In this document: positions 9,754 to 50,511 of the stretch, one piece after another
How the letters are laid out: the number at the start of each line of letters is the position of its first letter
Numbering within the stretch: the first letter of the stretch is position 1
Made by a program: the position numbers and the translations under genes
Notes under the pieces: model-generated
What the model saw: only the letters and a program-made list of their open reading frames with translations
The model's database searches: none
What the model was told of the DNA's origin: nothing
Source: Neocallimastix lanati (nom. inval.)
Taxonomy: Eukaryota > Neocallimastigomycota > Neocallimastigomycetes > Neocallimastigales > Neocallimastigaceae
Assembly: GCA_016946835.1 (NCBI GenBank)
Contig: JACVTC010000055.1
Span: 489,001-553,000 of the forward strand
Direction: 5' to 3'
DNA: 64,000 nucleotides

Positions 9754-9832
9754 ATGTATCATGATTATCAAGTGGATCTTTTAATTTCAAAATTAAAAAG
9801 AAGGTTAATAATATGAAGTTATTTATTTTATC

Positions 9833-9884
<52 letters not shown>

Positions 9885-11769
9885 ATTTAACATTGATATT
9901 TTGTAAAATTTGAATTATTTTATAAAATTAAAAATAAAAAAATTATTTATATAATTATTATAACTATTATTATTATATATTATTATTATTAATATTATTA
10001 TAAATGTAATTACATAAATAAAGACAAATTGTCAATTCAGGTCAAGCAGCAATTCAAACAGCTTATTTAATGAGAAAAGTAATTGCTGCCACGAAAAGTC
10101 ATCAAGCTGATAAATTAATAGATACTGTTAAGGAAATTGGAAAAAGATTAGTTTCAGCCCAACCAATGGGTAAATAAATAAAAAAATCTTCCATAGAAAT
10201 TGAATAAAAAACAATTTTATATTTTTTTCATTGATTTATTTTAAATGCAAAAATATTTTATGTAAATAGAGTTAGTCGTAGGTAATATTATTAGAAGAGT
10301 TTTACATATAATTCGTGAAGAGTATACTACAATTATGAAGCAAGAACAAAATAAAATTCCACAATTTCCAAGTTCATCTTCAACAATGTTTAATTTACTT
10401 GAAACTTCTGATGATATTGATTATTCAAATACTTTTTATGATATCCTTATGATACATTTATTAAATAATAAATATAAATAATTATAATAATTTTAATTCT
10501 CAATATATAATGAAATTTATAATTTTATTCTTTAACAAATATATATACATTTCAAGCAATTAGTTATTGATGGTATTAAAGATTTAATTGATGAATTAGA
10601 AACTCAACAACAGAATATTGCAAATCAAGCCTTGGAACACATTCATTCAAAGTATGGTTAAAATAATAATAAAACTATTTATATATTAGTAAACAAATAT
10701 TAAAAATATTTAAATTTAAATTTATATAAATTTTAAATAATATTTAAAACTACTTTAAAACATATATTGTTTTAATGTTTTAATATTATAAATATTGAAA
10801 TAAAATTAAATTATCATTCAGTGAAATTATTATGACTCTAAATAATTCCGAAACAGTTCAAAACTATTTAAAACAAGCGGCAAAAACAAGAACATTCCAA
10901 GTTATTGTTGCTGATACTTCACCAACGTGAATAAAAAAAATTTTTTTTTAGATATAATATTGAAATAAAAAAAAATAAGCAGTTATTAACTAATAATTTA
11001 TTATTTTGTATATAAAATTTATATTTATCAATTAAATTAGTCATGAAGGACAAGTTATGGCTAAAGCTTTAGCATCTGCTGGTATTGAAACTACTTTAAT
11101 ACCAGATTCAGCTATTTTTGCTGTTATGTCTAGAGTTAATAAGGTTATTCTTGGTAGTCATACAGTTACTGCAAATGGTGGACTTATTGCATGTACTGGT
11201 AGTCGTATTGTTGCTACTGCTGCTAAATACCATTCCACTCCAGTAGTTGTTTGTATTGGTTTATATAAACTTTCTCCTCAATACCCATTTGATATTGAAG
11301 AATATAATCTCTGTGTATCACCAGATCAAGTATATACATATGATGAAGGTAAAATATTTTTAAAAATAAATTGTTCTATACTTAATATTATTATATTAAT
11401 TATTTAATTATCATATATATATATGATAATATTATATTTTAAATTTTAAATTATTTAGGTGACATATTAGAAAAGGTCGACATTATTAATCCTTATTATG
11501 AATACGTACCACCTGAATTAGTTAGTTTATTTATTACAAATGTGTAAGTATTTAATTAAAAGATTAAATACATTAAATAAATACTATTCACTTTATTATA
11601 TTATTAAAAATTTCTTTTTATTTATATTAATAATATATAATTATATATATATATAATTTATTATTTTGATTATTAAATTCAATTACATAATAATAGAGGT
11701 CCACAACCACCAACATATATGTATAGATTATTGAATGAATTCTATTCAAAGGAAGATTTTGAAATTTAA
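9754..11769 (+). CDS. GCD7: Translation initiation factor eIF2B subunit beta
   Basis: Eight exons: 9754-9803, 10024-10169, 10270-10440, 10549-10651, 10822-10926, 11041-11348, 11459-11543 and 11697-11769. They join in frame to give 346 aa, close to the usual length of about 350-380. eIF2B is the guanine-nucleotide exchange factor for eIF2; beta belongs to its regulatory alpha-beta-delta core. Family signatures are VGNIIRRVLHIIREEY, NIANQALEHIHSNE, SAGIETTLIPDSAIFAVMSR and, at the C-terminus, YVPPELVSLFITN and GPQPPTYMYRLLNEFYS. Six introns use GT-AG. The third (10441-10548) has no GT near the junction and is read as a U12-type AT-AC intron, the only choice found that keeps the frame and restores the conserved sequence. 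The gene appears intact. Confidence 0.95.
10441..10548 (+). other. U12-type AT-AC intron in eIF2B beta
   Basis: The 108-bp intron begins ATATCCTTAT, the exact 5' splice-site consensus of AT-AC minor-spliceosome introns. It has TTCTTTAAC at 10528-10536, one mismatch from the U12 branch-site consensus TTCCTTAAC, and ends in AC. The presumed branch A at 10535 lies 13 nt before the exon, inside the usual narrow window. Joining G (10440) to AT (10549) makes a GAT codon and the protein reads DFKQLVIDGIKDL, in line with the family. No GT donor is found close to this junction. Confidence 0.88.
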
Positions 11770-32939: not shown

Positions 32940-35497
32940 CACGATTTTCACCAATTGAAGTATAATACCACGTCCATTATTGCAAGTAATAATTTCAGTA
33001 TTAGTGTTTTCAATCGAATCTGTATCAGATCTTTCACTGGGAGGTGAAAAATCCATGCCATATCATTTCGATGTCGACGCTCTTAGCAACGGTAGATTCA
33101 ACGGAATACCATTTCATTAATCTAAAAGATCAACAAATTAATGGTATTACGTATGTTAGAAATTCTGCAATCCCCACAAAATACGGAACAGTTGACGAAG
33201 TTGAACTTTGTTTAAAAATATTGTCAACTAATTGTCTTTGTTCCCCATCATTAACTTTAATTTTTGAATATATTGAACGCCCACCAAGAAGTGCATTCAA
33301 TATAAATAATAAATATTATTATTATAATCCTTTTTCTGAATCTAAAGAAACATCCAAGGATTTTTGTTCAATTATCAAAGCAAACTTCAAAAAGAAATCA
33401 TCTAGAAAAGGTAAAGATTTATTTCTGTAATTTTCCAATTCTTTACAGGCAACGATCCAGTGAGAAAAGCTAGGTACACTAACACCACAACAAGGGCAAC
33501 ATTTAGGACAATCTTCTGAGACGATTTTTCTTTTAATGGAAATACTAATGTCAAATTTAAAACCACACCTAATTTCGAGAAATCCAAAAGAATCCCAACT
33601 GATACTTAGGATATTGAAATGTTAAGTTTCTGATTTCTGAAATAAATCCATAATCATTCTCCTTTGTAAATAATTGCTTTTTTAGCTTTTGAGGGTTTGA
33701 AGACATCTCTTTCCCAATAAAACTTTTTTATTTCACTTGTTTTCTTACCATTTAATTTCTTATCCAAAGTCCTTGATTCTTTAGTCCATGAGTAATGTGA
33801 CATAGTAGGAATATTATTAGTGAGATGATTAATAATACATGAAAAATTTTTCCATTTTCTAAAGCATCGTAATTGAGATATTGCATAGACAGCTGAAAGA
33901 GGAGGTATTCTCAATTCACGAGTAATATTATAGAGACTAACAGAAGAATTGCGAGATTTAAATCCATAACTCCAATAAAGTCCTCTATTAATAATTTTTT
34001 GAGCTTTAGAACATCTGCTCTTATTTGAACCAAAGAGAGGAGCATAATATATAACAAGACTAAGAATAAACGAAATTAAAACATATCTCTTCAATGGGAG
34101 AGGAACAGATTTATTAATAAGAAATCGAAAGTACAAATTTAACTTGACATTTAAATTACTGTTTAATTTGGATTGTATAGGTTTCAGTGATAAAGATTCA
34201 TCAAAAGGAATACCAAGATAGGTATAGTTGTCAGTTTTAGGTAATTTGTTACTCCCAATAAAGAAAGATGGATCTTCATAGTTTATCGGTTTAACAAAGT
34301 TAATCGGTTTTACAACAAGAGTAGCACACTTATTAATTCCAAAAGTCATTTCATTTTTAATAGTCCATTCATGAACTTTATTCAAAATTTTCTTAAGAGC
34401 TTGTTTAGATGGAGCAACTAAAACAATATCATCCGCAAAAAGTCCACCACAACGATATTGAGTATCTAAATATACACCATACTTATCACAATTATCCAGT
34501 ACATCATTAATGAACAAATTGAATAAAATAGGAGATAGAGGGCATCCTTGTCTAACACCACGATTAATCGAAAATTCTTCTGAGAGATTACCATTAAAAA
34601 AAGCACAAGCTTTAGAAGATAGATAAAGATTCTTTAAAAACAGATGACATTTATCTCTAATTCCTAAGTTATATAATTTGGTCAAAATATTAAAGATAGG
34701 TACAGAATCATAGGCTTTTTTAAGATCGAGAAAAGCAAGATAAGTAAAATTTCCTTGAAATTTTCTTCTTTGACATATCTCTCTAATCGAAATATATAAA
34801 CTTATGCATTCTTCTTTATTTCTAAATCCAAATTGTTCAGGTCTAACAAATTTATGTTCAAGGGCATATTTAGCAATTCTATTAGTAACAATCTTTGAAA
34901 TAATTTTTAAGCCAACATTAATAAGAGAAATACCACGATAATTATTACAATCCGAAAGATCTCCTTTTTTTGGAATTGATATTATAGAAGCCGAATTCCA
35001 CTCTTCAGGGAAATTACCATCCCAGATTTTGTTAAATAATGAAAGTAAACATTTAGCACACTTAGAGTAGTGATCATCTGAAGAATCATCTTGATTATCG
35101 AATAAATCAGATTTACTAAAGAAAGCTTTAAAAAATTCAATCGGAATACCATCGGGTCCAGGAGCTTTATTATTTTTCATTTCAAGCACAGTGTTTTGAA
35201 TTTCTTCCATAGTAATAGAATCATTAATATCCCAAGTAAGATTATTATTAGGATTAGTTCCAAATAAACTTACCCAGTATTTATTATCCAAACTGTGTTG
35301 AGTAACATCAGAAGCTAGTTCACTGTAATGTTCAGAAAAACGATTTAATTGATCCGAATGAGAAAATAAAAAGTTACCCTGCTTGTCCTTTAAAACGCTT
35401 GACGAAATAGAATTAGAGTACATAGGGCGAGATAGCTTCTTTAATTTTAACCAAGCACTCCTAGCATTTTTATTACGAAAATCATTGCATGCATATT
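32940..35497 (-). mobile_element. LINE-C: decayed, 5'-truncated non-LTR retrotransposon
   Basis: The main open frame (33654-35423) encodes 589 aa of a reverse transcriptase. It has KNNKAPGPDGIP, EWNSASIISIPKKGDLSDC, FLDLKKAYDSV, GVRQGCPLSPILFN and the catalytic FADDIVL. A TGA at 33654 and frameshifts separate it from the continuing C-terminal part (CPKCCPCCG...H zinc knuckle at about 33450-33530, LLGGRS, FVGIAEFL and KSVDIEMIWHG near 33060). The upstream sequence (RNKNARSAWLKLKKLS) stops at about 35497, so the endonuclease domain is missing. It is clearly related to LINE-A, but the protein sequences differ at many positions. Confidence 0.85.
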
Positions 35498-35622
35498 AAA
35501 TAGAATTAGAGTACATACCAGCAATAGGAGGAATGCTTAGATCTCGAGATAAAGCATAAGTACTCATAGTAGAATTATGTCTAATATATTTATTTGATTT
35601 TAAAAAATAATTGCTGTAACTA

Positions 35623-35624
<2 letters not shown>
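35498..35624. other. Patchwork junction made of LINE-derived pieces
   Basis: It starts with a repeat of AAATAGAATTAGAGTACATA, which also occurs in LINE-C at about 35406-35425. Then come about 74 bp (about 35519-35592) apparently identical to LINE-B 37149-37222, then a short AT-rich piece ending CTGTAACTATCT, a 12-mer also found in the patchwork at 42837-42848. The truncated LINE-A copy begins at once after this. Confidence 0.7.
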
Positions 35625-35671
<47 letters not shown>

Positions 35672-35949
35672 CTAGGAATAAATTTTATTTAATAATATTT
35701 ATTTTTTTTTTAAAAAATACATGAAGTTTAAATACATGAAATTTTTTTTTTTTTTATATTAATATTAAAAAACTACGTTATGAGATTCGAGGACGAAAAG
35801 GCCTCTAACTCTTCCCATTCATCGAAGATAACTCCATGTGGATGAAAATTATCATTCGAATCTGTATCAGAATTTCTTCTTTGCCTTATCGTTACGACGT
35901 CGACGCTCTTGACAACGGTAGGTCTAACACTATACAAATCGATCATGGT

Positions 35950-35950
<1 letters not shown>
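35625..35950 (-). mobile_element. LINE-A', truncated copy of the LINE-A 3' end
   Basis: Poly-T (35625-35668), then AGACTAGGAATAAA and sequence almost identical to LINE-A 37724-37994, including the last codons of its protein. It stops abruptly at GATCATGGTG. It is thus a 5'-truncated insertion of about 0.3 kb, recent judging by its near identity to LINE-A. Confidence 0.9.
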
Positions 35951-35993
<43 letters not shown>

Positions 35994-37674
35994 CAGGGAA
36001 GAGAATACACTTCCAAAACTTTATTAATTTTATTATAAAAAATACATGTAGGTGAAAAGTACATTTGAAATTAAAAATAAAAAATTAAAAAATAAAAAAA
36101 TAAAAAGCTCGAAATTACTATGTATTTCGGCAAGTTGTACTATGCGGGAATTTTTCCCTTCCTATCAAATAAAAAAGAAATAAAACCTAGAAGTAACATC
36201 TTTAAAATAGATAGTGTGGTGTCCACTAAACTCTCCCCGGACTCATCATTTATTGAACTACTAGGGAGAGATTCATCCTTCGTAACAATAGATGACGATC
36301 CTGTATTATCATTATGCCTTATCAGTACGACGTCGACGCTCTTGGATAAGTTTGGTATTTTGCAATACCTATCAAATAATAGCTCAAACGAACTACTAAT
36401 GATAGGTATTGCACTTGTTAAGAATTCCGCCAAGCCCACAATTTTTGGAACAGGTGACTCAGATGAACCTTTGAAAAGTAGTTCATTTAATTGTCTCTGT
36501 TCCCCACTATCGAAATGTAGCTCATTTAAAACTAAAGTCCCACCAAGAAGGAACAAGTATATATAATGATTGATATAATCTTCAAAATTAGAAATAGAGT
36601 CATAGGAAGAAAGAGGATTAAACGCTCTAATCTTCCTAAGGAATAAAACATAGAGATCATCGATGAAATTTAAAGAATTCCATCTAAAAGATGCAAGAGC
36701 ATCGCATTTAAAAATCCAATGTTCAAAAGATTGTTTATCTTCGCCACAACAGGGGCAATACTTGGGACAATCTTCTGAAACTCTACCCATTCTAATAGCA
36801 ATAGTAGTATTGTATTTATAACCACAGCGTAAACGTATAATCCACGAAAACCCTAAGTTGAATTGGGGATATTTTAAGCTAAGCATAATTATAGCTTTAT
36901 TGTTTGAGAACTTATTACGATTGTAATTTTGACCTTTAATACCTTGAAATTTGGCAACTGATTTCCAGTAACGTTCTAAAATATCGTCATATTTTTCACA
37001 TTTATATTTTTTGATTTTTTTATATAGTGTTCTAGATTCTTTAGTCCAGGAATAATGATGCATTTTTGGAATAGATTTAATAAGATCCTTTATAATACAG
37101 TTTGATTTACTCCATTTTGCAAATGATTTAATCTGTAAGGCTGCGCAGACACCAGCAATAGGAGGAATGCTTAGATCTCGAGATAAAGCATAAGTACTCA
37201 TAGTAGAATTATGTCTAATATAGTCATTGTCTTCTGAACTTGTTTTACCATTTTTAGAGAAGGAGCCGATACATCAAAATAGACCAGTATTAATTAATGT
37301 TTGAATTCTGGCCGTTCTAGATTTGTTTGAACCAAGTAAAGGAGAATAATAAATTACTTTACTAATAACAAAGGATTGAAGAACTTTTTTCTTGTATGCA
37401 ATAGGGATAAGTTTAATTGAGAAGAAATGTGTAAATGAAAGAAGGGATTTTCTAACTTTAAAATGCATGTGAGATATAATGTGTTCAAGTAAGAGATCAT
37501 CAGAAAAAGGAATACCAAGATAAATATAACTAGAAACTTTAGGAATAGCATTCATTCCTAAATAGAAGGTTGGGTCACTATAGTTTGGAGGAGATTGGAA
37601 GTTCATTGGTTTTATAACCATAGTTGCACATTTTTCAATACCAAAAGTCATTTCATTTAAATTAGCCCATCTAT

Positions 37675-37680
37675 GTACCT

Positions 37681-37687
<7 letters not shown>
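37675..37687. repeat. Target-site duplication, left copy
   Basis: GTACCTTTTTTAG is identical to 42630-42642. It belongs to LINE-B coding sequence and flanks the poly-T (3' end) of LINE-A. Confidence 0.9.
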
Positions 37688-37726
<39 letters not shown>

Positions 37727-40700
37727 CTAGGAATAAACTTTATTTAATAATATTTTTTTTAAAAAATACATGAAATTTAAATACATGAAATTATTTTTTA
37801 TATTAATATTAAAAAACTACGTTATGAGATTCGAGGACGAAAAGGCCTCTAACTCTTCCCATTCATCGAAGATAACTCCATGTGGATGAAAATTATCATT
37901 CGAATCTGTATCAGAATTTCTTCTTTGCCTTATCGTTACGACGTCGACGCTCTTGACAACGGTAGGTCTAACACTATACAAATCGATCATGGTGTAAAAA
38001 TCACCAATCACAATAGGCATAACGTTAGTAAGGAATTCCGCAAGCCCCACAAAATATGAAATCGGGAAAGAAGACTCGTTCGAAGGTGATTGAAAAATAT
38101 TATTAATATATCGCCTTCTTTCCCCCGAACCGATCTTTAAGATTTCAAATACTGCATTTCCGCCAAGAAGGAGACACAGCACGTAAAAATTGATATTATC
38201 ATCAAAATCTTCCTCTTTATCATCAGGAATGTTCAATGATTTCTCATGAACAATTAGAGAAAAATTAATAAAAATTTCATCAACAAAGGGAATGAAATGT
38301 TGCCTAAATTCTTCAAATTTAGGACATAAAAGTATCCAGTGTGTAAAACTAGGAATGCTGTTACTCTCACCACAACAAGGGCAGTATGTTGGGCAATTTT
38401 CTGATACTAGATTACTTTTAACATACGTTTTTACATCAAATTTGAATCCACATTTAATTCGTCCAATCCAAAAAAATCCAAGAGAAAATTGTGAAAATTT
38501 AAGTGATAGACGTTGAATAAATTTTTTAAAACCAAATTTAAATTTCTTGTATTTTGTAGATCTGATCGCAGGAGTGCTTGAATAATGAATATTTTCCCAG
38601 TAAAACTTCCTTATTTCTCCAGGAAGTTTATTATTGTGCTTATGTACTGCTAAACTCCGTGCTTTTTTTGTCCATGAATAGTGAGAAAGTGTAGGTATAT
38701 TTTTGACTAAATGAGAAATAATACAAGAAGAATCTTTCCACTTTTTAAAACATCGAATCATCGCCTTATCACAAAAACTAGCTATAGGAGGTATAGAAAG
38801 TTCCTTAGACATATTGTAAATTGAAGTATTGGAGGTTTTATTTTTAAACCCGAAACTCCAATACAAACCTCGATTAAAAGCAGTTTGAGCTTTTTCAGTA
38901 TTCTTTTTATTTGAACCAAGTAAGGGAGCATAATAAAGAACTGAACTAAGGACAAAAGAAACTAGTATACGAGTTTTAAAGTAGAAAGGAACATTCCTAT
39001 TGGTTAAAAATCTAAAGAAAGAGTTAACTGTATAATTAATTTTACTATTCATCTTAGCAATAATAGGTTTTAAATCCAACGATTCATTAAAAGGTATACC
39101 AAGATATGTATATTGATTAGTGCTTGGTATATAGTTCATACCAAGTCTAAAAGTAGGATTTTCATAATGTCTTGAAGGTATAAAATTCTTTGGTTTAACA
39201 ACTAGTGTAGCGCATTTATTGATTCCAAAGGTCATTTCATTTTTAATACCCCAATCATGAGCAATATTCAAAAGGTTTTTAAGTGAAGATTTTGTAGGAG
39301 CTAATAATACAATATCATCAGCAAATAATCCACCACAACACTTTTTCTTTTCAGTAATCACACCATAACTTTTACATTTATCAAAAATATCATTGATAAA
39401 TATATTGAATAAAATAGGTGAGAGAGGACACCCTTGGCGAACACCACGGTGTATTGGAAATTCTTTTGAAAGTTTACCATTAAAGTTTGCACGAGCTTTC
39501 GAGGTAAGGTATAGATTAGTAATGAATTGAAGGCATTTACCACGAATACCAAGATTATTTAGTTTAGTAAGTATATTGTAAATTGGAACTGAATCATAAG
39601 CTTTTTTAAGGTCAAGAAAGGCAAGAAAGGTAAATTTATCCTTAAATTTTCTTCTTTGACAAATTTCACGAATGGATACAAATAAACTAATACATTCTTC
39701 TTTATTTCTAAAACCAAACTGTTCTGGTCTAATTATTCCATTAGAAAAAGCATAGTCCGATATTCTTTTAGTGACAATTTTTGATAGAATTTTTAAACCT
39801 ACATTGATGAGTGAAATACCACGATAATTATTACAATCTGAAAGATCCCCTTTTTTAGGAATAGAAACAATAGAAGCAGAGTTCCATTCATTAGGAAAGT
39901 CACCATCCCAAATTTTATTAAAAAGTAATAACAGACACTTTGCACAATCGGAATAAGTAACCTCTTGATTAGAGTCATCCTGAGAAGAATTTCTACTCTC
40001 AGAATTAAAAAATGCTTTAAAAAATTCTGTAGGTATACCATCAGGACCAGGTGCTTTGTTATTTTTCATTGAAAGAACAGTTGAATGAATTTCTGACATG
40101 GAAATAGGTTGATTAATATCCCATGATTCCTGAGGAGTAGAAGAATTATTAAGTATTCTTTTCCAATAATTTTCATTAAGACTGTGACCAGTTATATCAG
40201 AAGCAAGTTCTTCATAGTGTTCTGCAAAACGATTGAGTTGATCTTCTTGGGATACTAGAACATTACCTTCTTTATCTTTAATGTATACAGGTGATTGGGA
40301 AGGAGAGTAAGAAGGTTTAGAAATTTTCTTAAGTCCAGACCAACCACGCTGGGCATCATTTTTTAAGAAACATTCGCCGATGGAATGAATCAAATTTTTA
40401 AATCTAATATTCCTAATATTTCTTTTAATACTAATGATATAATCAGAAAGAACTCTATATTCTTTTGAGAGATCACAAAATTCTTGAAGATTTGACAAAT
40501 CATTACTAATTTTAAAATTTTTAATCCTTTTATAAAATAAATGTTTTTCATGTGATAATTTCTTAATATAAGCAGGACAATGGAACGCTGAACCCTGTAA
40601 ATTTGTAGGAACTCTTGCTTGAATGTCATCGCCTATTTTATTTGCTGTGTCAAGAAGTTTTTTAACCATTGTATTAGAGTCTAGATTATCATTATGTTCA

Positions 40701-42629
40701 AATTCATCCAGTAAACATGTGAATTTATTATGAGAGAAGATTGCTTCACGTTTATCCCTACAAATTCGATTAGACCACTTAACTTGTTTATCCCGAGGGG
40801 GAGTAACAAAACCATCAGGAGATATTTTTTTACAAGAAAGAATAAGTGGTAAATGGTCAGAGATGTCATTAAAAGAGTAGCATACAGAAGCAATATTCAG
40901 ATAATTTCTTAATTTATCGTTCACTACTATAAAATCAATACAAGAATTCTTTCCACCATTAGACCAAGTAAATTGATGACCAACCATATCCATAACAAAC
41001 CATTGAGGGGAAATTCTAAGAATAAGATCTTTGAGTTGTTGCTTAGTCATGTTGAAATCACCAACAATAGCCGAAGGGTTATTCTGATGGTTCTTAAGCC
41101 AATTAGCAAAATCAGTTTCCGCTTTTTCTCTAGAGTCTTTGTGTTTTTTGCTAGGGATGTAAATGTTCCCTAAAGAACATCTGACACCCCAAAAAGAGAA
41201 TATATTTACTGAGAGTATATATCTATATTCAAAATCATCATTAGTGAATTGGCAGGAGGAGTGCACACCTATATAAAGGCCCCTCATACCAGGGATTTTT
41301 TTGTCCGCACGTCTCAGTACTGTTCTATAATGATTAAGGAATGGATATGAGTTAGAAAAGGAGTTAAGGAATGAACTATTACCGACTTCTTGAAGACAAA
41401 TACAAATAGGATTAAAGATTGAATTAAAATTGGTAAGTCCGTCACGTTTTTCAGAATTCCAACCATTTATGTTCCAGCTAATACAGAGGTTGAAATATTT
41501 AGTATTCGAGAAAGGGTTAGCATACAGGAGGCTTTCAGAGATGGGGATTGAGGGTTCAGAATAATACCTGGTTCTATTATGATTAACATTGCTAAATGTG
41601 CGTATCCTTGAAGTAATCTTCCATTTTATTCTTTTAACAGGTAAGTGCTTAGTAATCAAATAAATAACCTTCAAATAATCAGTACAATTATTATAGTTAA
41701 CTCTTAGGATGAAGTAGTTTTCCATATTAATATAGTGTTTTTTAACGATTCCATGAACAACTACATTACAATTTGATATCTTTTTGCTTAAAAATTCCCA
41801 TAGTCTACTTTCAGTCCAAGATTCAAGATCATGAATGAAAATTAAAACAAATTTATCATGGTCAGGACCATAAAGTCGCAGACCTCTTCGTATAGTTGAC
41901 ATAATAAAATAAAAAACTTATCTATATTAATAAAAGGTAAGTGTAATATAAAAATAAAAAAATAAAATTAGTAAAAAATTAAAAAATTAAAAAAAAATAA
42001 AAATTTATTGCTGTTGTCTTCTCTTTCGTGTATATTGTTTGCTAAAACTTGTTTGTTTTTCTTTCTTTTTGTGTTGACTAGTTTTTAATTAATGATTTTC
42101 AATTATAAATTCCTGTTTTATGTAAAAATTTCTGTAAAATAATCATATATAATATAAAATTTAAATGTTAATGAAATAATAGTTGTGAAAAACTATAAAA
42201 AGATTCCCATCCGTTAAATAATGTCTCAAACACAAGCTTTGGAGTGAATCAATCTCCTACATTTCCATTTTACAATAGCTACATGAGAGTATAAATAATA
42301 CTATAGAAAAAAACATATACAAAATAATGCTAAAGTAAAAAATACAATAGATTCATTACAATGATAATATGTAGAAACTACATGATATTATTAATTATAC
42401 AACTCCAATGTTACTACATATCCAGTTTAAGACATTATAGAACGTCAAGTTCACTTTCTACAGTCTTCCAGTATTCCAGATTTCTCTCTTCGTACTAGAA
42501 GCCACTTAGAAAGGATAACCATTGATTATCATCAGAATCACAGAAAGCTGTAATTAGTACACCTGATATAGGTTATTCCTTTTCCATCAACCCTCCATGG
42601 ACCTGGAAAAACAGTCCACTTCATTGGGG
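37688..42629 (-). mobile_element. LINE-A: full-length non-LTR retrotransposon
   Basis: About 4.94 kb, bounded by 13-bp direct repeats. On the minus strand it has a 5' leader of about 727 bp (41903-42629), a single 1361-codon ORF, a short 3' UTR with an AATAAA near the end (reverse of 37731-37740) and a poly-A tail of about 36. No upstream ORF1 was found. It is inserted in LINE-B. The intact ORF, uninterrupted tail and perfect target-site duplication all indicate recent movement, and it may be active. Exact clade (for example Tad, L1-like) cannot be settled by eye. Confidence 0.92.
37817..41902 (-). CDS. LINE endonuclease/reverse transcriptase polyprotein
   Basis: A protein of 1361 aa. Residues 1-130 are a basic N-terminal region of unknown role, with a beta-alpha pattern (ENYFILRVNY) that might be an RNA-binding fold. 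Residues about 140-357 are an APE-type endonuclease: ISWNINGWN, LQEVG (Glu172), GDFNM (Asp282, Asn284), CIDFIVV (Asp323) and SDHLPL (Asp349-His350), all key residues present. Residues about 600-920 are the reverse transcriptase: KNNKAPGPDGIPTEFF, FLDLKKAYDSV (Asp764), RQGCPLSPILFN and FADDIVLL (Asp862-Asp863). A zinc knuckle CPTYCPCC...H...C lies at 1170-1193, and a conserved LLGG/GLAEFLT tail ends the protein. It nicks target DNA and copies its own RNA in place. No stop or frameshift is present. The first ATG is just after an AT-rich stretch and gives the longest frame. Confidence 0.95.
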   Translation of the reverse strand: MSTIRRGLRLYGPDHDKFVLIFIHDLESWTESRLWEFLSKKISNCNVVVHGIVKKHYINMENYFILRVNYNNCTDYLKVIYLITKHLPVKRIKWKITSRIRTFSNVNHNRTRYYSEPSIPISESLLYANPFSNTKYFNLCISWNINGWNSEKRDGLTNFNSIFNPICICLQEVGNSSFLNSFSNSYPFLNHYRTVLRRADKKIPGMRGLYIGVHSSCQFTNDDFEYRYILSVNIFSFWGVRCSLGNIYIPSKKHKDSREKAETDFANWLKNHQNNPSAIVGDFNMTKQQLKDLILRISPQWFVMDMVGHQFTWSNGGKNSCIDFIVVNDKLRNYLNIASVCYSFNDISDHLPLILSCKKISPDGFVTPPRDKQVKWSNRICRDKREAIFSHNKFTCLLDEFEHNDNLDSNTMVKKLLDTANKIGDDIQARVPTNLQGSAFHCPAYIKKLSHEKHLFYKRIKNFKISNDLSNLQEFCDLSKEYRVLSDYIISIKRNIRNIRFKNLIHSIGECFLKNDAQRGWSGLKKISKPSYSPSQSPVYIKDKEGNVLVSQEDQLNRFAEHYEELASDITGHSLNENYWKRILNNSSTPQESWDINQPISMSEIHSTVLSMKNNKAPGPDGIPTEFFKAFFNSESRNSSQDDSNQEVTYSDCAKCLLLLFNKIWDGDFPNEWNSASIVSIPKKGDLSDCNNYRGISLINVGLKILSKIVTKRISDYAFSNGIIRPEQFGFRNKEECISLFVSIREICQRRKFKDKFTFLAFLDLKKAYDSVPIYNILTKLNNLGIRGKCLQFITNLYLTSKARANFNGKLSKEFPIHRGVRQGCPLSPILFNIFINDIFDKCKSYGVITEKKKCCGGLFADDIVLLAPTKSSLKNLLNIAHDWGIKNEMTFGINKCATLVVKPKNFIPSRHYENPTFRLGMNYIPSTNQYTYLGIPFNESLDLKPIIAKMNSKINYTVNSFFRFLTNRNVPFYFKTRILVSFVLSSVLYYAPLLGSNKKNTEKAQTAFNRGLYWSFGFKNKTSNTSIYNMSKELSIPPIASFCDKAMIRCFKKWKDSSCIISHLVKNIPTLSHYSWTKKARSLAVHKHNNKLPGEIRKFYWENIHYSSTPAIRSTKYKKFKFGFKKFIQRLSLKFSQFSLGFFWIGRIKCGFKFDVKTYVKSNLVSENCPTYCPCCGESNSIPSFTHWILLCPKFEEFRQHFIPFVDEIFINFSLIVHEKSLNIPDDKEEDFDDNINFYVLCLLLGGNAVFEILKIGSGERRRYINNIFQSPSNESSFPISYFVGLAEFLTNVMPIVIGDFYTMIDLYSVRPTVVKSVDVVTIRQRRNSDTDSNDNFHPHGVIFDEWEELEAFSSSNLIT

Positions 42630-43660: not shown

Positions 43661-46600
43661 CTACCAGCATTTTCCAAATTCAGATTGACATCCTTGGTTT
43701 ACATCACAGTATTTTTGACTCTTTCCACACCAACCATACTTACTACAACAGTATCCCTTTGCACATTTACCATATCCTTTACCACATCTATCAGTACTTC
43801 CTTCAGTTTTTCTTGTACTATTACATTGACCAAATTCGGATTGACATCCCTGGTTTACATCACAGTATTTTTCACTCTTTCCACACCATCCGTACTTACT
43901 ACAGCAATATCCCTTTGCACATTTACCATATCCTTTACCACATCTATCAGTACTTCCTTCAGTTTTTCTTGTACTTCCTTCAGTTTTTCTTGTACTATTA
44001 CATTGACCAAATTCGGATTGACATCCCTGGTTTACATCACAGTACTTTTCGCTCTTTCCACACCATCCGTACTTACTACAACAATATCCCTTCTTACAAA
44101 CTCCAAATTCTTTACCGCATCTATCATTTTCAGATACCTTTGCAGTCTTTGGACTTTCTTCATCATCTTCAGATTCATTATCATCTTCAGTTGGAATTCC
44201 GGCAATTTCGGCATCAGATTGCTTTCCATTTCCGTTGTTTTTATTACATTCACCAAATTCAGATTGACATCCTTGGTTTACATCACAGTACTTTTCACTC
44301 TTTCCACACCATCCGTACTTACTACAACAATATCCCTTCTTACAAACTCCGAATTCTTTACCGCATCTATCATTTTCAGATACCTTTGCAGTCTTTGGAC
44401 TTTCTTCATCATCTTCAGATTCATTATCATCTTCAACTGGGGCTCCAGTAATTTCATCATCGTCATCAGATTTTTCATCATCTTCAACTATACCATTACA
44501 TTTTCCATATTTGGATTGACATCCTTGGTTTACATCACAGTACTTTTCACTCTTTCCACACCATCCGTACTTACTACAACAATATCCTTCAGCACATTTA
44601 CCATAACCTTCACCACATCTATCAGTATTGTTATTCGTTTCTCTTGAAGTGCTAGTTTTCGTACTAGTTTGAGTTTTATTTGTAGTAGTAGTCATAGTAC
44701 CAAATTGAGAGTCAGTAGCAGTAGCTCTATCAGTTACAGTAGCAGATTGAGAATCAGTAGCAGTAGTACTATCAGTTACAGTAGCAGATTGAGAATCAGT
44801 AGCAGTAGTACTATCAGTTACAGTAGCAGATTGAGAATCAGTAGCAGTAGCACTATCAGTTACAGTAGCAGATTGAGAATCATTAGCAGTAGCACTATCA
44901 GTTACAGTAGCAGATTGAGAATCAGTAGCAGTAGCACTATCAGTTACAGTAGCAGATTGAGAATCAGTAGCAGTAGCACTATCAGTTACAGTAGCAGATT
45001 GAGAATCAGTAGCAGTAGTACTATCAGTTACAGTAGCAGATTGAGAATCAGTAGCAGTAGCACTATCAGTTACAGTAGCAGATTGAGAATCAGTAGCAGT
45101 AGCACTATCAGTTACAGTAGCAGATTGAGAATCAGTAGCAGTAGTACTATCAGTTACAGTAGCAGATTGAGAATCAGTAGCAGTAGCACTATCAGTTACA
45201 GTAGCAGATTGAGAATCAGTAGCAGTAGCACTATCAGTTACAGTAGCAGATTGAGAATCAGTAGCAGTAGCACTATCAGTTACAGTAGCAGATTGAGAAT
45301 CAGTAGCAGTAGCACTATCAGTTACAGTAGCAGATTGAGAATCAGTAGCAGTAGCACTATCAGTTACAGTAGCAGATTGAGAATCAGTAGCAGTAGCACT
45401 ATCAGTTACAGTAGCAGATTGAGAATCAGTAGCAGTAGTACTATCAGTTACAGTAGAAGATTGAGAGTCAGTAGCAGTAGCACTATCAGTTACAGTAGCA
45501 GATTGAGAATCAGTAGCAGTAGTACTATCAGTTACAGTAGCAGATTGAGAATCAGTAGCAGTAGTACTATCAGTTACAGTAGCAGATTGAGAATCAGTAG
45601 CAGTAGTACTATCAGTTACAGTAGAAGATTGAGAGTCAGTAGCAGTAGCACTATCAGTTACAGTAGAAGATTGAGAGTCAGTAGCAGTAGCACTATCAGT
45701 TACAGTAGAAGATTGAGAGTCAGTAGCAGTAGCACTATCAGTTACAGTAGTAGTAGTAGTAGTAATTGTAAATTCACGTGGTGTTTCTTCTTCTTCATCA
45801 TTTTCTTCTTCATCATTTTCTTCTTCATCATTTTCTTCTTCATCATTTTCTTCTTCATCATTTTCTTCTTCATCATTTTCTTCTTCATCATTTTCTTCTT
45901 CATCATTTTCTTCTTCATCATTTTCTTCTTCATCATTTTCTTCTTCATCATTTTCTTCTTCATCATTTTCTTCTTCATCATTTTCTTCTTCATCATTTTC
46001 TTCTTCATCATTTTCTTCTTCATCATTTTCTTCTTCATCATTTTCTTCTTCATCATTTTCTTCTTCATCATTTTCTTCTTCATCATTTTCTTCTTCATCA
46101 TTTTCTTCTTCATCATTTTCTTCTTCATCATTTTCTTCTTCATCATTTTCTTCTTCATCATTTTCTTCTTCATCATTTTCTTCTTCATCATTTTCTTCTT
46201 CATCATTTTCTTCTTCATCATTTTCTTCTTCATCATTTTCTTCTTCATCATTTTCTTCTTCATCATTTTCTTCTTCATCATTTTCTTCTTCATCATTTTC
46301 TTCTTCATCATTTTCTTCTTCATCATTTTCTTCTTCATCATTTTCTTCTTCACCATTTTCTTCTTCATCATTTTCTTCTTCATCATTTTCTTCTTCATCA
46401 TTTTCTTCTTCATCATTTTCTTCTTCATCATTTTCTTCTTCATCATTTTCTTCTTCACCATTTTCTTCTTCACCATTTTCTTCTTCATCATTTTCTTCTT
46501 CATCATTTTCTTCTTCACCATTTTCTTCTTCACCATTTTCTTCTTCACCATTTTCTTCTTCATCATTTTCTTCTTCATCATTTTCTTCTTCATCATTCTC

Positions 46601-49600
46601 TTCTTCATCATTTTCTTCTTCATCATTTTCTTCTTCATCATTTTCTTCTTCATCATTTTCTTCTTCATCATTTTCTTCTTCATCATTTTCTTCTTCATCA
46701 TTTTCTTCTTCATCATTCTCTTCTTCATCATTTTCTTCTTCATCATTTTCTTCTTCATCATTTTCTTCTTCATCATTTTCTTCTTCATCATTTTCTTCTT
46801 CATCATTCTCTTCTTCTTCATTTTCTTCTTGTTCTTCTTCTTCTTCTTGTTCTTCTTCTTGTTCTTGTTCTTGTTCTTCTTCATTTTCTTCTTCTTCTTG
46901 TTCTTCTTCTTCTTGTTCTTCTTCTTCTTGTTCTTCTTCTTCTTGTTCTTCTTCTTCTTGTTCTTCTTCTTCTTGTTCTTCTTCTTGTTCTTCTTCTTGT
47001 TCTTCTTCTTCTTGTTCTTCTTCTTGTTCTTCTTCTTCTTGTTCTTCTTCTTCTTGTTCTTCATTTTCTTCTTGTTCTTCTTCTTCTTGTTCTTCTTCTT
47101 CTTGTTCTTCTTCTTGTTCTTCTTCTTGTTCTTCTTCTTGTTCTTCTTCTTCTTGTTCTTCTTCTTGTTCTTCTTCTTCTTGTTCTTCATTTTCTTCTTG
47201 TTCTTCATTTTCTTCTTGTTCTTCTTCTTCTTGTTCTTCTTCTTGTTCTTCTTCTTGTTCTTCTTCTTGTTCTTCTTCTTCCTGTTCTTCATTTTCTTCT
47301 TGTTCTTCTTCTTCTTGTTCTTCTTCTTCTTGTTCTTCTTCTTCTTGTTCTTCTTCTTCTTGTTCTTCTTCATTTTCTTCTTCTTCTTGTTCTTCTTCCT
47401 GTTCTTCATTTTCTTCTTCATTTTCTTCTTCTTCTTCTTCTTCTTGTTCTTCTTCTTCTTCTTGTTCTTCTTCATTTTCTTCTTCTTCTTCTTCTTCATT
47501 TTCTTCTTCTTCTTCTTCTTCTTCATTTTCTTCTTCTTCTTGTTCTTCTTCATTTTCTTCTTCTTCTTCTTCTTCTTCATTTTCTTCTTCTTCTTGTTCT
47601 TCTTCATTTTCTTCTTCTTCTTCTTCTTCTTCTTGTTCTTCTTCTTCTTCTTCATTTTCTTCTTGTTCTTCTTCTTCTTCTTCTTCATTTTCTTCTTCTT
47701 CTTCTTGTTCTTCTTCTTCTTCTTCTTCATTTTCTTCTTCTTGTTCTTCTTCTTCTTCTTGTTCTTCTTCTTCTTCATTTTCTTCTTCTTCTTCTTCTTC
47801 TTCATTTTCTTCTTCTTCTTGTTCTTCTTCTTCTTCTTCATTTTCTTCTTCTTCATTTTCTTCTTCTTCATTTTCTTCTTCTTCTTCTTCTTCTTGTTCT
47901 TCTTCTTCTTGTTCTTCTTCTTCATTTTCTTCTTCTTCTTGTTCTTCTTCTTCTTGTTCTTCTTCTTCTTCTTCTTGTTCTTCTTGTTCTTCTTCTTCTT
48001 CTTCTTGTTCTTCTTCTTCTTCTTCTTCTTCTTCTTGTTCTTCTTCTTCTTCTTCTTCTTCTTGTTCTTCTTCTTCTTGTTCTTCTTCTTCTTCTTCTTC
48101 TTCTTCTTCATTTTCTTCTTCTTCTTCTTCTTCTTCTTCTTGTTCTTCTTCTTCTTCTTCTTCTTCTTCTTGTTCTTCTTCTTCTTCTTCATTTTCTTCT
48201 TCTTCTTCTTCTTCATTTTCTTCTTCTTCTTCTTCTTCATTTTCTTCTTCTTCTTCTTGTTCTTCTTCTTCTTCTTCATTTTCTTCTTCTTCTTCATTTT
48301 CTTCTTCTTCTTCTTGTTCTTCTTCTTCTTGTTCTTCTTCTTCTTCTTCATTTTCTTCTTCTTCTTCTTCTTCATTTTCTTCTTCTTCTTCTTGTTCTTC
48401 TTCTTCTTCTTCATTTTCTTCTTCTTCTTCATTTTCTTCTTCTTCTTCTTGTTCTTCTTCTTCTTCTTCATTTTCTTCTTCTTCTTCATTTTCTTCTTCT
48501 TCTTCTTGTTCTTCTTCTTCTTCTTCATTTTCTTCTTCTTCTTCTTCATTTTCTTCTTCTTCTTCTTCTTGTTCTTCTTCTTCTTGTTCTTCTTCTTCTT
48601 CTTCATTTTCTTCTTCTTCTTCTTCATTTTCTTCTTCTTCTTCTTGTTCTTCTTCTTCTTCTTGTTCTTCTTCTTCTTCTTGTTCTTCTTCTTCTTCTTG
48701 TTCTTCTTCTTCTTCTTCTTGTTCTTCTTCTTCTTGTTCTTCTTCTTCTTCTTCTTCTTCTTGTTCTTCTTCTTCTTGTTCTTCTTCTTCTTCTTCTTCT
48801 TGTTCTTCTTCTTCTTGTTCTTCTTCTTCTTGTTCTTCTTCTTCTTCTTGTTCTTCTTCTTCTTCTTCTTCATTTTCTTCTTCTTCTTCTTCATTTTCTT
48901 CTTCTTCTTCATTTTCTTCTTCTTCTTCTTCATTTTCTTCTTCTTCTTCATTTTCTTCTTCTTCTTGTTCTTCTTCTTCTTCTTCATTTTCTTCTTCTTC
49001 TTCTTCTTCTTGTTCTTCTTCTTCTTCTTCTTCTTGTTCTTCTTCTTCTTCTTCTTCTTGTTCTTCTTCTTCATTTTCTTCTTGTTCTTCTTCTTCTTCT
49101 TCTTCTTCTTCTTCTTCTTCATTTTCTTCTTCTTCTTCTTCATTTTCTTCTTCTTCTTCTTCATTTTCTTCTTCTTCTTCTTCTTCATTTTCTTCTTCTT
49201 CTTCTTCTTCATTTTCTTCTTCTTGTTCTTCTTCTTCATTTTCTTCTTCTTCTTCTTGTTCTTCTTCTTCTTGTTCTTCTTCTTCTTCTTGTTCTTCTTC
49301 TTCTTCATTTTCTTTTTCTTCTTCTTCTTGTTCTTCTTCTTGTTCTTCTTTTTGTTCTTCTTTTTGTTCTTCTTTTTGATCTTCTACTGCTTGTTCTTCT
49401 TTTTGTTCTTCTACTGCTTGTTCTTCTTTTTGTTCTTCTACTGCTTGTTCTTCATTTTGTCTTTTATTAATATTCATATTTACCATTTGAGCATATTCGA
49501 TAACTTTCTTTTGTCCTCTTTTTATGATTTCCTTTGTATTTTCTGAAACAGCTATTTCATCATCATTTAAAACCCATGTGTTAGACATAGGTATATAAAT

Positions 49601-49648
49601 GCATACCATAAGTATTGCTAATATTAATAATTTTAAATTTACAATCAT
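43661..49648 (-). CDS. Giant secreted Glu-rich repeat protein with five CBM18 modules
   Basis: Single 1995-codon frame. Residues 1-24 are a signal peptide (hydrophobic LLILAILMVCIYI). A short unique region follows. Residues about 60-945 are almost only Glu with Gln or Asn every few residues. Residues about 946-1288 are about 68 units of NDEEE (some NGEEE). Residues about 1298-1650 are about 25 units of 14 residues of the type TVTDSATATDSQSA, likely O-glycosylated. Residues about 1674-1995 hold five CBM18 (hevein-type) chitin-binding modules with the core CCSKYGWCGKS and eight cysteines each, separated by acidic spacers such as EDDNESEDDEESP. It has no membrane anchor or GPI signal after the modules. 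I infer an extracellular or wall protein whose C-terminal modules grip chitin and whose acidic part forms a long, highly charged brush. I know of no named family with this architecture. Tandem-repeat lengths could be affected by assembly. Confidence 0.85.
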   Translation of the reverse strand: MIVNLKLLILAILMVCIYIPMSNTWVLNDDEIAVSENTKEIIKRGQKKVIEYAQMVNMNINKRQNEEQAVEEQKEEQAVEEQKEEQAVEDQKEEQKEEQKEEQEEEQEEEEKENEEEEEQEEEEEQEEEEQEEEEENEEEEQEEENEEEEEEENEEEEEEENEEEEEENEEEEEENEEEEEEEEEEEEQEENEEEEQEEEEEEEQEEEEEEEQEEEEEEENEEEEEEQEEEENEEEEENEEEEEENEEEEENEEEEEENEEEEEEEQEEEEEQEEEEQEEEEQEEEEEEEQEEEEQEEEEEEEEQEEEEQEEEEEEQEEEEEQEEEEEQEEEEEQEEEEENEEEEEENEEEEEEQEEEEQEEEEEENEEEEEENEEEEEEQEEEEENEEEEENEEEEEEQEEEEENEEEEENEEEEEEQEEEEENEEEEEEENEEEEEEQEEEEQEEEEENEEEEENEEEEEEQEEEEENEEEEEEENEEEEEEENEEEEEEQEEEEEEEEEQEEEEEEEEENEEEEEEEEEEQEEEEQEEEEEEEEQEEEEEEEEEQEEEEEEQEEQEEEEEEQEEEEQEEEENEEEEQEEEEQEEEEEEENEEEENEEEENEEEEEEQEEEENEEEEEEEENEEEEEQEEEEEQEEENEEEEEEEQEEEEENEEEEEEEQEENEEEEEEQEEEEEEEENEEEQEEEENEEEEEEEENEEEQEEEENEEEEEEEENEEEEEEENEEEQEEEEEQEEEEEEENEEENEEQEEEQEEEENEEEQEEEEQEEEEQEEEEQEEEEQEENEEQEEEEQEEEQEEEQEEEQEEEEQEENEEQEENEEQEEEEQEEEQEEEEQEEEQEEEQEEEQEEEEQEEEEQEENEEQEEEEQEEEEQEEEQEEEEQEEEQEEEQEEEEQEEEEQEEEEQEEEEQEEEEQEEEENEEEQEQEQEEEQEEEEEQEENEEEENDEEENDEEENDEEENDEEENDEEENDEEENDEEENDEEENDEEENDEEENDEEENDEEENDEEENDEEENDEEENDEEENDEEENGEEENGEEENGEEENDEEENDEEENGEEENGEEENDEEENDEEENDEEENDEEENDEEENDEEENGEEENDEEENDEEENDEEENDEEENDEEENDEEENDEEENDEEENDEEENDEEENDEEENDEEENDEEENDEEENDEEENDEEENDEEENDEEENDEEENDEEENDEEENDEEENDEEENDEEENDEEENDEEENDEEENDEEENDEEENDEEENDEEENDEEENDEEENDEEENDEEENDEEENDEEEETPREFTITTTTTTVTDSATATDSQSSTVTDSATATDSQSSTVTDSATATDSQSSTVTDSTTATDSQSATVTDSTTATDSQSATVTDSTTATDSQSATVTDSATATDSQSSTVTDSTTATDSQSATVTDSATATDSQSATVTDSATATDSQSATVTDSATATDSQSATVTDSATATDSQSATVTDSATATDSQSATVTDSATATDSQSATVTDSTTATDSQSATVTDSATATDSQSATVTDSATATDSQSATVTDSTTATDSQSATVTDSATATDSQSATVTDSATATDSQSATVTDSATANDSQSATVTDSATATDSQSATVTDSTTATDSQSATVTDSTTATDSQSATVTDRATATDSQFGTMTTTTNKTQTSTKTSTSRETNNNTDRCGEGYGKCAEGYCCSKYGWCGKSEKYCDVNQGCQSKYGKCNGIVEDDEKSDDDDEITGAPVEDDNESEDDEESPKTAKVSENDRCGKEFGVCKKGYCCSKYGWCGKSEKYCDVNQGCQSEFGECNKNNGNGKQSDAEIAGIPTEDDNESEDDEESPKTAKVSENDRCGKEFGVCKKGYCCSKYGWCGKSEKYCDVNQGCQSEFGQCNSTRKTEGSTRKTEGSTDRCGKGYGKCAKGYCCSKYGWCGKSEKYCDVNQGCQSEFGQCNSTRKTEGSTDRCGKGYGKCAKGYCCSKYGWCGKSQKYCDVNQGCQSEFGKCW
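44700..45757 (-). repeat. 42-bp coding minisatellite (Thr/Ser repeats)
   Basis: About 25 units of 42 bp encoding TVTDSATATDSQSA-type repeats, with a few recurrent variants (GTACTA for GCACTA; AGAAGATTGAGAGT near the 5' end of the gene's tract). Variants are clustered, as expected of local unit duplication. Confidence 0.9.
45785..46811 (-). repeat. 15-bp coding minisatellite (NDEEE repeats)
   Basis: About 68 nearly identical 15-bp units, plus-strand TTCTTCTTCATCATT. Rare variants are CACCATT (Gly for Asp) in clusters at 46350 and 46450-46550, and ATTCTC. Confidence 0.92.
46812..49470 (-). repeat. Long GAA/TTC-rich coding tract
   Basis: About 2.65 kb in which the coding strand is GAA triplets broken only by CAA or AAT. 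It produces very long open frames in several other frames and strands, which are artefacts. The strand asymmetry (pyrimidine-rich plus strand) is nearly complete. Confidence 0.92.
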
Positions 49649-50511
49649 TTTGAATAATACTAAATTATAAAAATTTATATTACACTATCTGATAATTAAA
49701 AATTATATAACTACAATTAAATTAAATAAACGTTTTTAAATAAATTTTTATTATTTTTAAGCTTCTAATTTTTTGATTATTTGAATTATTTATCTTAGAT
49801 CTTTAATTTTCGAATATTGAAATATATTATTATGATTAAATAAAATTTTTTTAATTATTCATTTATTTTAAATTTTAATTTAATAGATTTTTCAAAATTT
49901 AATAATATTAAAAAAATTTATTATAGAATTGTAGTGTAAAAAAAAAAATTTCTAAAAGAAAATCTTTACTATTTATATACTTAGGAAAAAAAAAATTAGT
50001 TTGTTAAAAATTTTGAAATAATACATTAAAAATTATATTGTATAATATATTTTGTAATATATTTTAAAATATATCTTTTTTTTTTTTAAAACATAATAAA
50101 TATATATTTTATGTGTATATTTTTATATGTACATTTTTTCAAATAATTTATATTTATTGATTTAAACTTTATTTTTATTATTTAAAAAATAATAATAATA
50201 ATGAGATAAAAAATAATTTTATTTTATCAATATACCATCAATATATTATGAAAAAATATATTATTAATATATTTATTCCATTATAATTTGAGGTATAAAA
50301 TAAGGAAATTGTAAAATTTTATACATTAATTTATCCTTTTTTTTAAAAAAAAAATTTAATAATATAAATTTAATTTATTTTTTTTTTAATATATTAAAAT
50401 TTTATTTTCATTTTATTTTATTAAAATATTATTATATTAAATGAAATCTTTAATACAATTTAAAAGGTTGAAAAAAAATGCATTATAAATATATACATTT
50501 AATGTAATAAT

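Follow-up and report, generated by a model that had tools for sequence, protein, structure and literature searches.

Minor-class (U12-type) introns have the 5' splice-site consensus RTATCCTT and the branch-site consensus TTCCTTRAY; AT-AC introns of the U2 type have a major-class 5' splice site and lack the U12 branch site. We describe here a U12-type AT-AC intron at positions 10441..10548 of a 64 000-nucleotide stretch of the Neocallimastix lanati genome (contig JACVTC010000055.1; the whole stretch is called the window below), where it interrupts the gene for eIF2B-beta. It shares with the U12-type AT-AC introns of animals and plants the ATATCCTT 5' splice site, a branch site of the TTCYTTAAC kind and the AC end. 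Minor small nuclear RNAs (snRNAs) were already mentioned for Zygomycota and Chytridiomycota in a 2010 paper (PMC2846911), and Larue and Roy (2023; PMC10639083) reported minor introns and snRNAs in Neocallimastigomycetes, from Piromyces finnis and Neocallimastix californiae, members of the same class of fungi. The inference that this lineage retains the minor spliceosome is thus right but already published; what the intron contributes is one more well-supported case from fungi already reported to keep minor introns. The main text of that study does not mention eIF2B, and we found in it no passage on U11-48K, CENATAC or sequence changes in U6atac for these fungi.

The AT-AC intron of the eIF2B-beta gene

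The intron (10441..10548, + strand; 108 nt, phase 1) starts with ATATCCTTAT (10441..10450), an RTATCCTT start, carries the branch site TTCTTTAAC (10528..10536) near its end and terminates in an in-frame AC (10547..10548). The branch site differs from TTCCTTRAY by one change that preserves a G-U pair with U12, so that seven of eight positions pair with the U12 of this genome, one of them as a wobble. Counted from the A at the eighth base of the motif, the usual branch site, 13 nt remain to the intron end; the optimum for U12-type introns is 11–13 nt (PMC3584512). The first-pass annotation had noticed the lack of a GT near the exon–intron junction, and indeed there is no GT, GC or AG anywhere within the intron, the nearest upstream GT being at position 10388.

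When all splice pairs around the junction were enumerated (donors 10380–10499, acceptors 10490–10599), no GT-AG or GC-AG pair kept the frame open, and ordinary splicing by such a pair was rejected on this ground. The earlier statement that only the 10441–10548 splice keeps the frame proved too strong, since 21 AT-AC and 38 AT-AG pairs in the same range also leave it open; what stands is that this splice restores the conserved product, and among the frame-open pairs it is the one with both U12 signals in place. Given the local composition, the chance of TATCCTT at a fixed place is about 7e-5 and that of the branch motif (at most one mismatch, one of nine offsets) about 1e-3, their product giving a joint chance of about 7e-8. 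The predicted spliced junction (10440/10549) joins TTTTTATG to ATTTCAAG.

Spliced in this way, the gene (9754..11769, + strand; assigned by frame and homology) has an open frame through eight exons and encodes 346 amino acids. Exons 1–4 lie at 9754–9803, 10024–10169, 10270–10440 and 10549–10651, and exons 5–8 at 10822–10926, 11041–11348, 11459–11543 and 11697–11769 (all + strand). Introns 1 (9804..10023, + strand), 2 and 4–7 are ordinary GT-AG introns, the third alone of the seven being different. The best Protein Data Bank (PDB) match of the product is the eIF2B-beta chain 5b04_C (E 8.4e-98), which we take to be that of S. pombe, and the Pfam IF-2B domain is detected at E 5.1e-69. Two further eIF2B-beta chains, 9y3p_C and 6k71_C, presumably human, give phmmer alignments that cross the junction without a gap. 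The closest of 2222 database matches, P0001 (346 amino acids; JGI record, 1041 bases), is identical at 343 of 346 residues, gapless and exact at the junction. The length of that record equals 347 codons exactly, hence it contains no introns.

We are highly confident that this is a minor-class AT-AC intron and that the fungus retains a minor spliceosome which removes it, and the first-pass annotation, which had proposed such an intron at these positions, is borne out by the start, the branch site, the AC end, the frame and the P0001 match. Its presence suggests that gut fungi with extremely AT-rich genomes need a rare kind of splicing to make a basic translation factor, and that the splice of eIF2B-beta intron 3 would escape gene callers restricted to GT-AG.

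A second copy and further AT-AC candidates

A second eIF2B-beta copy was found at C79:1095475 (L032), with 91–95% identity in the four exons compared (e.g. 161/171 bases in exon 3 and 98/103 in exon 4); it may be a diverged allele or a duplicate. Its intron has diverged from that of the window copy in the body (81 of 95 aligned bases identical, 21 gap columns) but shares with it the first ten bases, the branch motif and the AC end, a pattern that fits selection on the splice signals.

Pattern searches for AT-AC introns across the genome (199 Mb, AT-rich) admitted just two branch sites, TTCTTTAAC and TTCCTTAAC. With a perfect branch site and a gap of 60–90, 19 matches were obtained against 4 in the reversed control. 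Twelve of these have a T before TATCCTT and hence lack the motif; among the other seven, whose flanks were translated, L019 alone fits an AT-AC intron, and L021 and L022 have no AC within 25 bases. With a looser branch site, a required AC and a gap of 70–100, there were 13 matches against 6, of which L039 (the window intron), L032, L037 and L044 fit. Six others (L033–L036, L040 and L043) have similar starts, as from one repeated sequence, and L033, the one translated, misfits, as do the translated flanks of L038 and L041; L042 coincides with L027, which misfits. Judged by the reversed controls, most pattern matches are not introns.

Besides the window intron, four loci therefore fit the AT-AC type: L032; L044, in a gene for a TFIIIC-type zinc finger protein whose Pfam match spans the junction (E 3.6e-5); L037, in an ataxin-2-like gene with an LsmAD domain (E 1.7e-13) that lies entirely downstream of the junction; and L019, which has no Pfam match. 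In the five introns the branch A lies 11–18 nt from the end. Under the two search patterns, four of the five use TTCTTTAAC, which forms a wobble with U12, instead of the TTCCTTAAC of animal and plant U12-type introns. A genome-wide search for GT-AG minor introns in one size bin returned one match against none in the control and no clear case: the single match is the place of L026, and its body has 38% G+C, unlike the five introns. AT-AC introns may thus dominate among the minor introns of this genome, albeit in a small sample.

Minor snRNA genes and proteins

Rfam models and Pfam profiles were run on the contigs of the genome, and 14 control genomes, all prokaryotes, served to gauge the noise level only. 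U12 was detected at C146 (56.8 bits; Rfam cut-off 53), U11 at C50 (40.5; cut-off 39) and U6atac twice, at C246 (L004) and C588 (L005) (57.4 and 56.4; cut-off 33); the U4atac match at C610 is weighed below. At E up to 10, U11 matched in 3, U4atac in 11 and U6atac in 11 of the 14 controls, none over the cut-off, and U12 (E up to 0.001) in none; the PF05253 profile matched over its cut-off in one of them. Stem II between U4atac and U6atac comprises 11 Watson–Crick pairs, with paired changes relative to the Rfam consensus.

The Rfam match to U11 starts at L002:1501, also in a repeat cmscan of the stretch, and taken at face value would give a changed 5' end (AGAAUAGG). This idea was dropped when AAAAAGGG was found 134 bases upstream, at L002:1367, where we place the 5' end by inspection. 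For the first 11 bases of AAAAAGGGCTTATG, the sequence at this place, the odds of a chance occurrence within a 300-base stretch are about 6e-5, computed post hoc. The Rfam match thus seems to misplace the 5' end, and U11 seems to be about 268 nt long (L002:1367–1634), double the length of the Rfam model, with its conserved core set off from the 5' end by an additional AT-rich insert. So placed, AAAAAGGG pairs with the 5' splice site through five pairs, one of them G-U.

Two minor-spliceosome proteins, U11-48K and CENATAC, were tested. For U11-48K, a 3-kb locus contains a CHHC-type zinc-finger match (33.9 bits) and an open frame matching the SNRNP48 chain 8r7n_F (E 1.5e-8), and we infer that the two frames belong to one gene. 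For CENATAC, C13 has two matches separated by 1.9 kb, each above the cut-off (E 3.7e-6 and 1.9e-4), in frames that we take to encode its zinc fingers and C-terminus. In human cells, CENATAC promotes the splicing of AT-AN minor introns (PMC8280824).

The matches to four minor snRNAs, the two proteins and the AT-AC candidates make it very probable that the fungus keeps a working minor spliceosome, as the first-pass annotation had proposed. The result that it named as refuting, a total absence of minor-spliceosome components, is not what the genome holds. By analogy with animals, these snRNA and protein genes would be expressed and perform the splicing. U11 and U11-48K would bind the 5' splice site, U12 would pair with TTCTTTAAC so as to leave a branch A some 13 nt from the end of the intron, and U11 would then give way to the U4atac/U6atac.U5 tri-snRNP together with CENATAC.

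An altered U6atac

The two U6atac genes share with the mammalian RNA (PMC4980772) and the Rfam consensus the 5' end, the GAGAGA, U4atac stem II and the layout of U12 helix I. They differ at positions 12–14, which read GCC instead of AAG in both copies, and in the AGC triad, which is replaced by GGC with a matching C in both U4atac and U12. More precisely, A26 is changed to G opposite a C in U4atac stem I and C5 of U12, and G22 to A opposite a U at U12 position 11, where the consensus has C. U4atac/U6atac stem I contains one U-U mismatch, and C21 has lost its pair with U12 relative to the consensus (U12 registers in this comparison were placed by inspection). A genome scan for U6atac-like cores with at most two mismatches returned these two alone (reversed control: one), and collections of virus and prokaryote contigs held no exact match. 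The copies are identical over their first 54 bases, and their flanks agree at 379 of 469 aligned bases in the upstream 500 and 489 of 498 in the downstream 500; they are perhaps alleles or a recent duplicate, and so amount to little more than one observation.

In a mammalian suppressor assay, C5 and C6 of the 5' splice site pair with G14 and G15 of U6atac, and pairing of this kind was required (PMC4980772). Here G15-C5 is kept and position 14 is a C, so the complementarity of G14 and G15 to C5 and C6 is broken. In the standard register the fungal U6atac forms two pairs and a wobble with ATATCCTTAT, against five pairs for the consensus; for introns with T at position 9, the figures are three pairs and a wobble against six. 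The best predicted duplex has −1.6 kcal/mol on ATATCCTTAT (consensus U6atac −5.4) and −2.5 kcal/mol on ATATCCTTTT (consensus −6.8). These fungal optima stem from shifted registers (U6atac 8–12 or 15–19), which could be a weak substitute for the standard pairing.

No change to match the GCC was seen in U11 or in the introns found, which keep the standard form, although a set of introns selected by ATATCCTT is not enough on its own to establish the 5' splice-site consensus of the genome. A search for 5' splice sites in which positions 6 and 7 are each C or G and position 8 is T, a pattern that includes the GG form complementary to this U6atac, gave one match against five in the control and none with GG; the sole match, ATATCCCT, by eye runs through a zinc-knuckle frame.

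In this fungus the pairs between U6atac and the 5' splice site are thus probably fewer or weaker than the Rfam consensus U6atac would form. A bolder version, to which we give somewhat less than an even chance, is that it no longer uses the classical helix; the choice of 5' splice site would then fall to U11, U11-48K and tri-snRNP proteins (e.g. CENATAC), perhaps aided by U6atac pairing in a shifted register, and AT-AC would be the main type among the minor introns that survive. We found no report of this change in our searches of the literature on the minor spliceosome or on anaerobic fungi, judged mostly by title and abstract. If real, it outweighs the intron in importance, as the lineage would do without most of the pairing that the mammalian assay needed, and the share of the RNA helix in 5' splice-site choice could be tested through its loss.

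Alternative explanations

Several observations weigh against a working minor spliceosome acting on this intron. Its splicing is deduced from genomic sequence, with indirect support from P0001, whose record may be a predicted coding sequence rather than a transcript. The alignment to 5b04_C begins at residue 122, that is, at the junction, and the protein immediately upstream is variable among 14 aligned sequences, with an 8-residue insertion in S. pombe; homology would hence fix the downstream side of the junction better than the upstream side, which rests mainly on P0001. U4atac scores 47.2 bits, under its Rfam cut-off of 53, with the whole model covered. On its own, the zinc-finger piece assigned to U11-48K matches gametocyte-specific factor 1 in PDB better (E 1.3e-5) than U11-48K (0.0081). 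In both U6atac copies the partners of C6 and U7 of the 5' splice site are missing. This last loss, the few minor introns found and the lack of a clear GT-AG one in the size bin searched would fit the view that the minor snRNA genes are relics and that a changed major spliceosome handles the AT-AC introns. Relics would hardly be expected to keep an 11-pair stem II, U6atac changes matched in U4atac and U12, the AAAAAGGG end of U11, and U11-48K and CENATAC. The 54 identical U6atac bases beside upstream flanks at 379/469 point the same way, weakly given 489/498 downstream. We consider relics very improbable.

An equally slight probability attaches to a pseudogene or assembly error, with the 'intron' being either inserted sequence or what is left of a decayed GT-AG intron. 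The existence of a second eIF2B-beta copy leaves room for it, but the frame is open in all eight exons, L032 has the same AT-AC signals around a diverged body, and P0001 matches at 343 of 346 residues. Scarcely more probable is a U2-type ('type II') AT-AC intron spliced by the major spliceosome. Such introns are known (PMC7072748) and the other six introns of the gene are GT-AG; against this, the genome has matches for all four minor snRNAs, and the intron has the U12 branch site and a 5' splice site that is not of the major class. Removal of the eIF2B-beta intron by the minor spliceosome remains the reading that we prefer.

Other features of the window

A GH48 cellulase with two CBM_10 stretches is encoded at 496–2763 (Pfam E 3.4e-265 and 4.7e-28), a combination typical of gut-fungal cellulosomes; together with the AT-rich 199-Mb genome it agrees with an anaerobic gut fungus as host. 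LINE-like elements occupy 33654–41917, with two reverse transcriptase frames, one of which also has an endonuclease domain. Long open frames occur on both strands at 43661–49684; that on the minus strand has 2007 codons and five chitin-binding stretches, and overlaps a 3.7-kb TTC repeat and 25 copies of a 42-base unit (+ strand reading).
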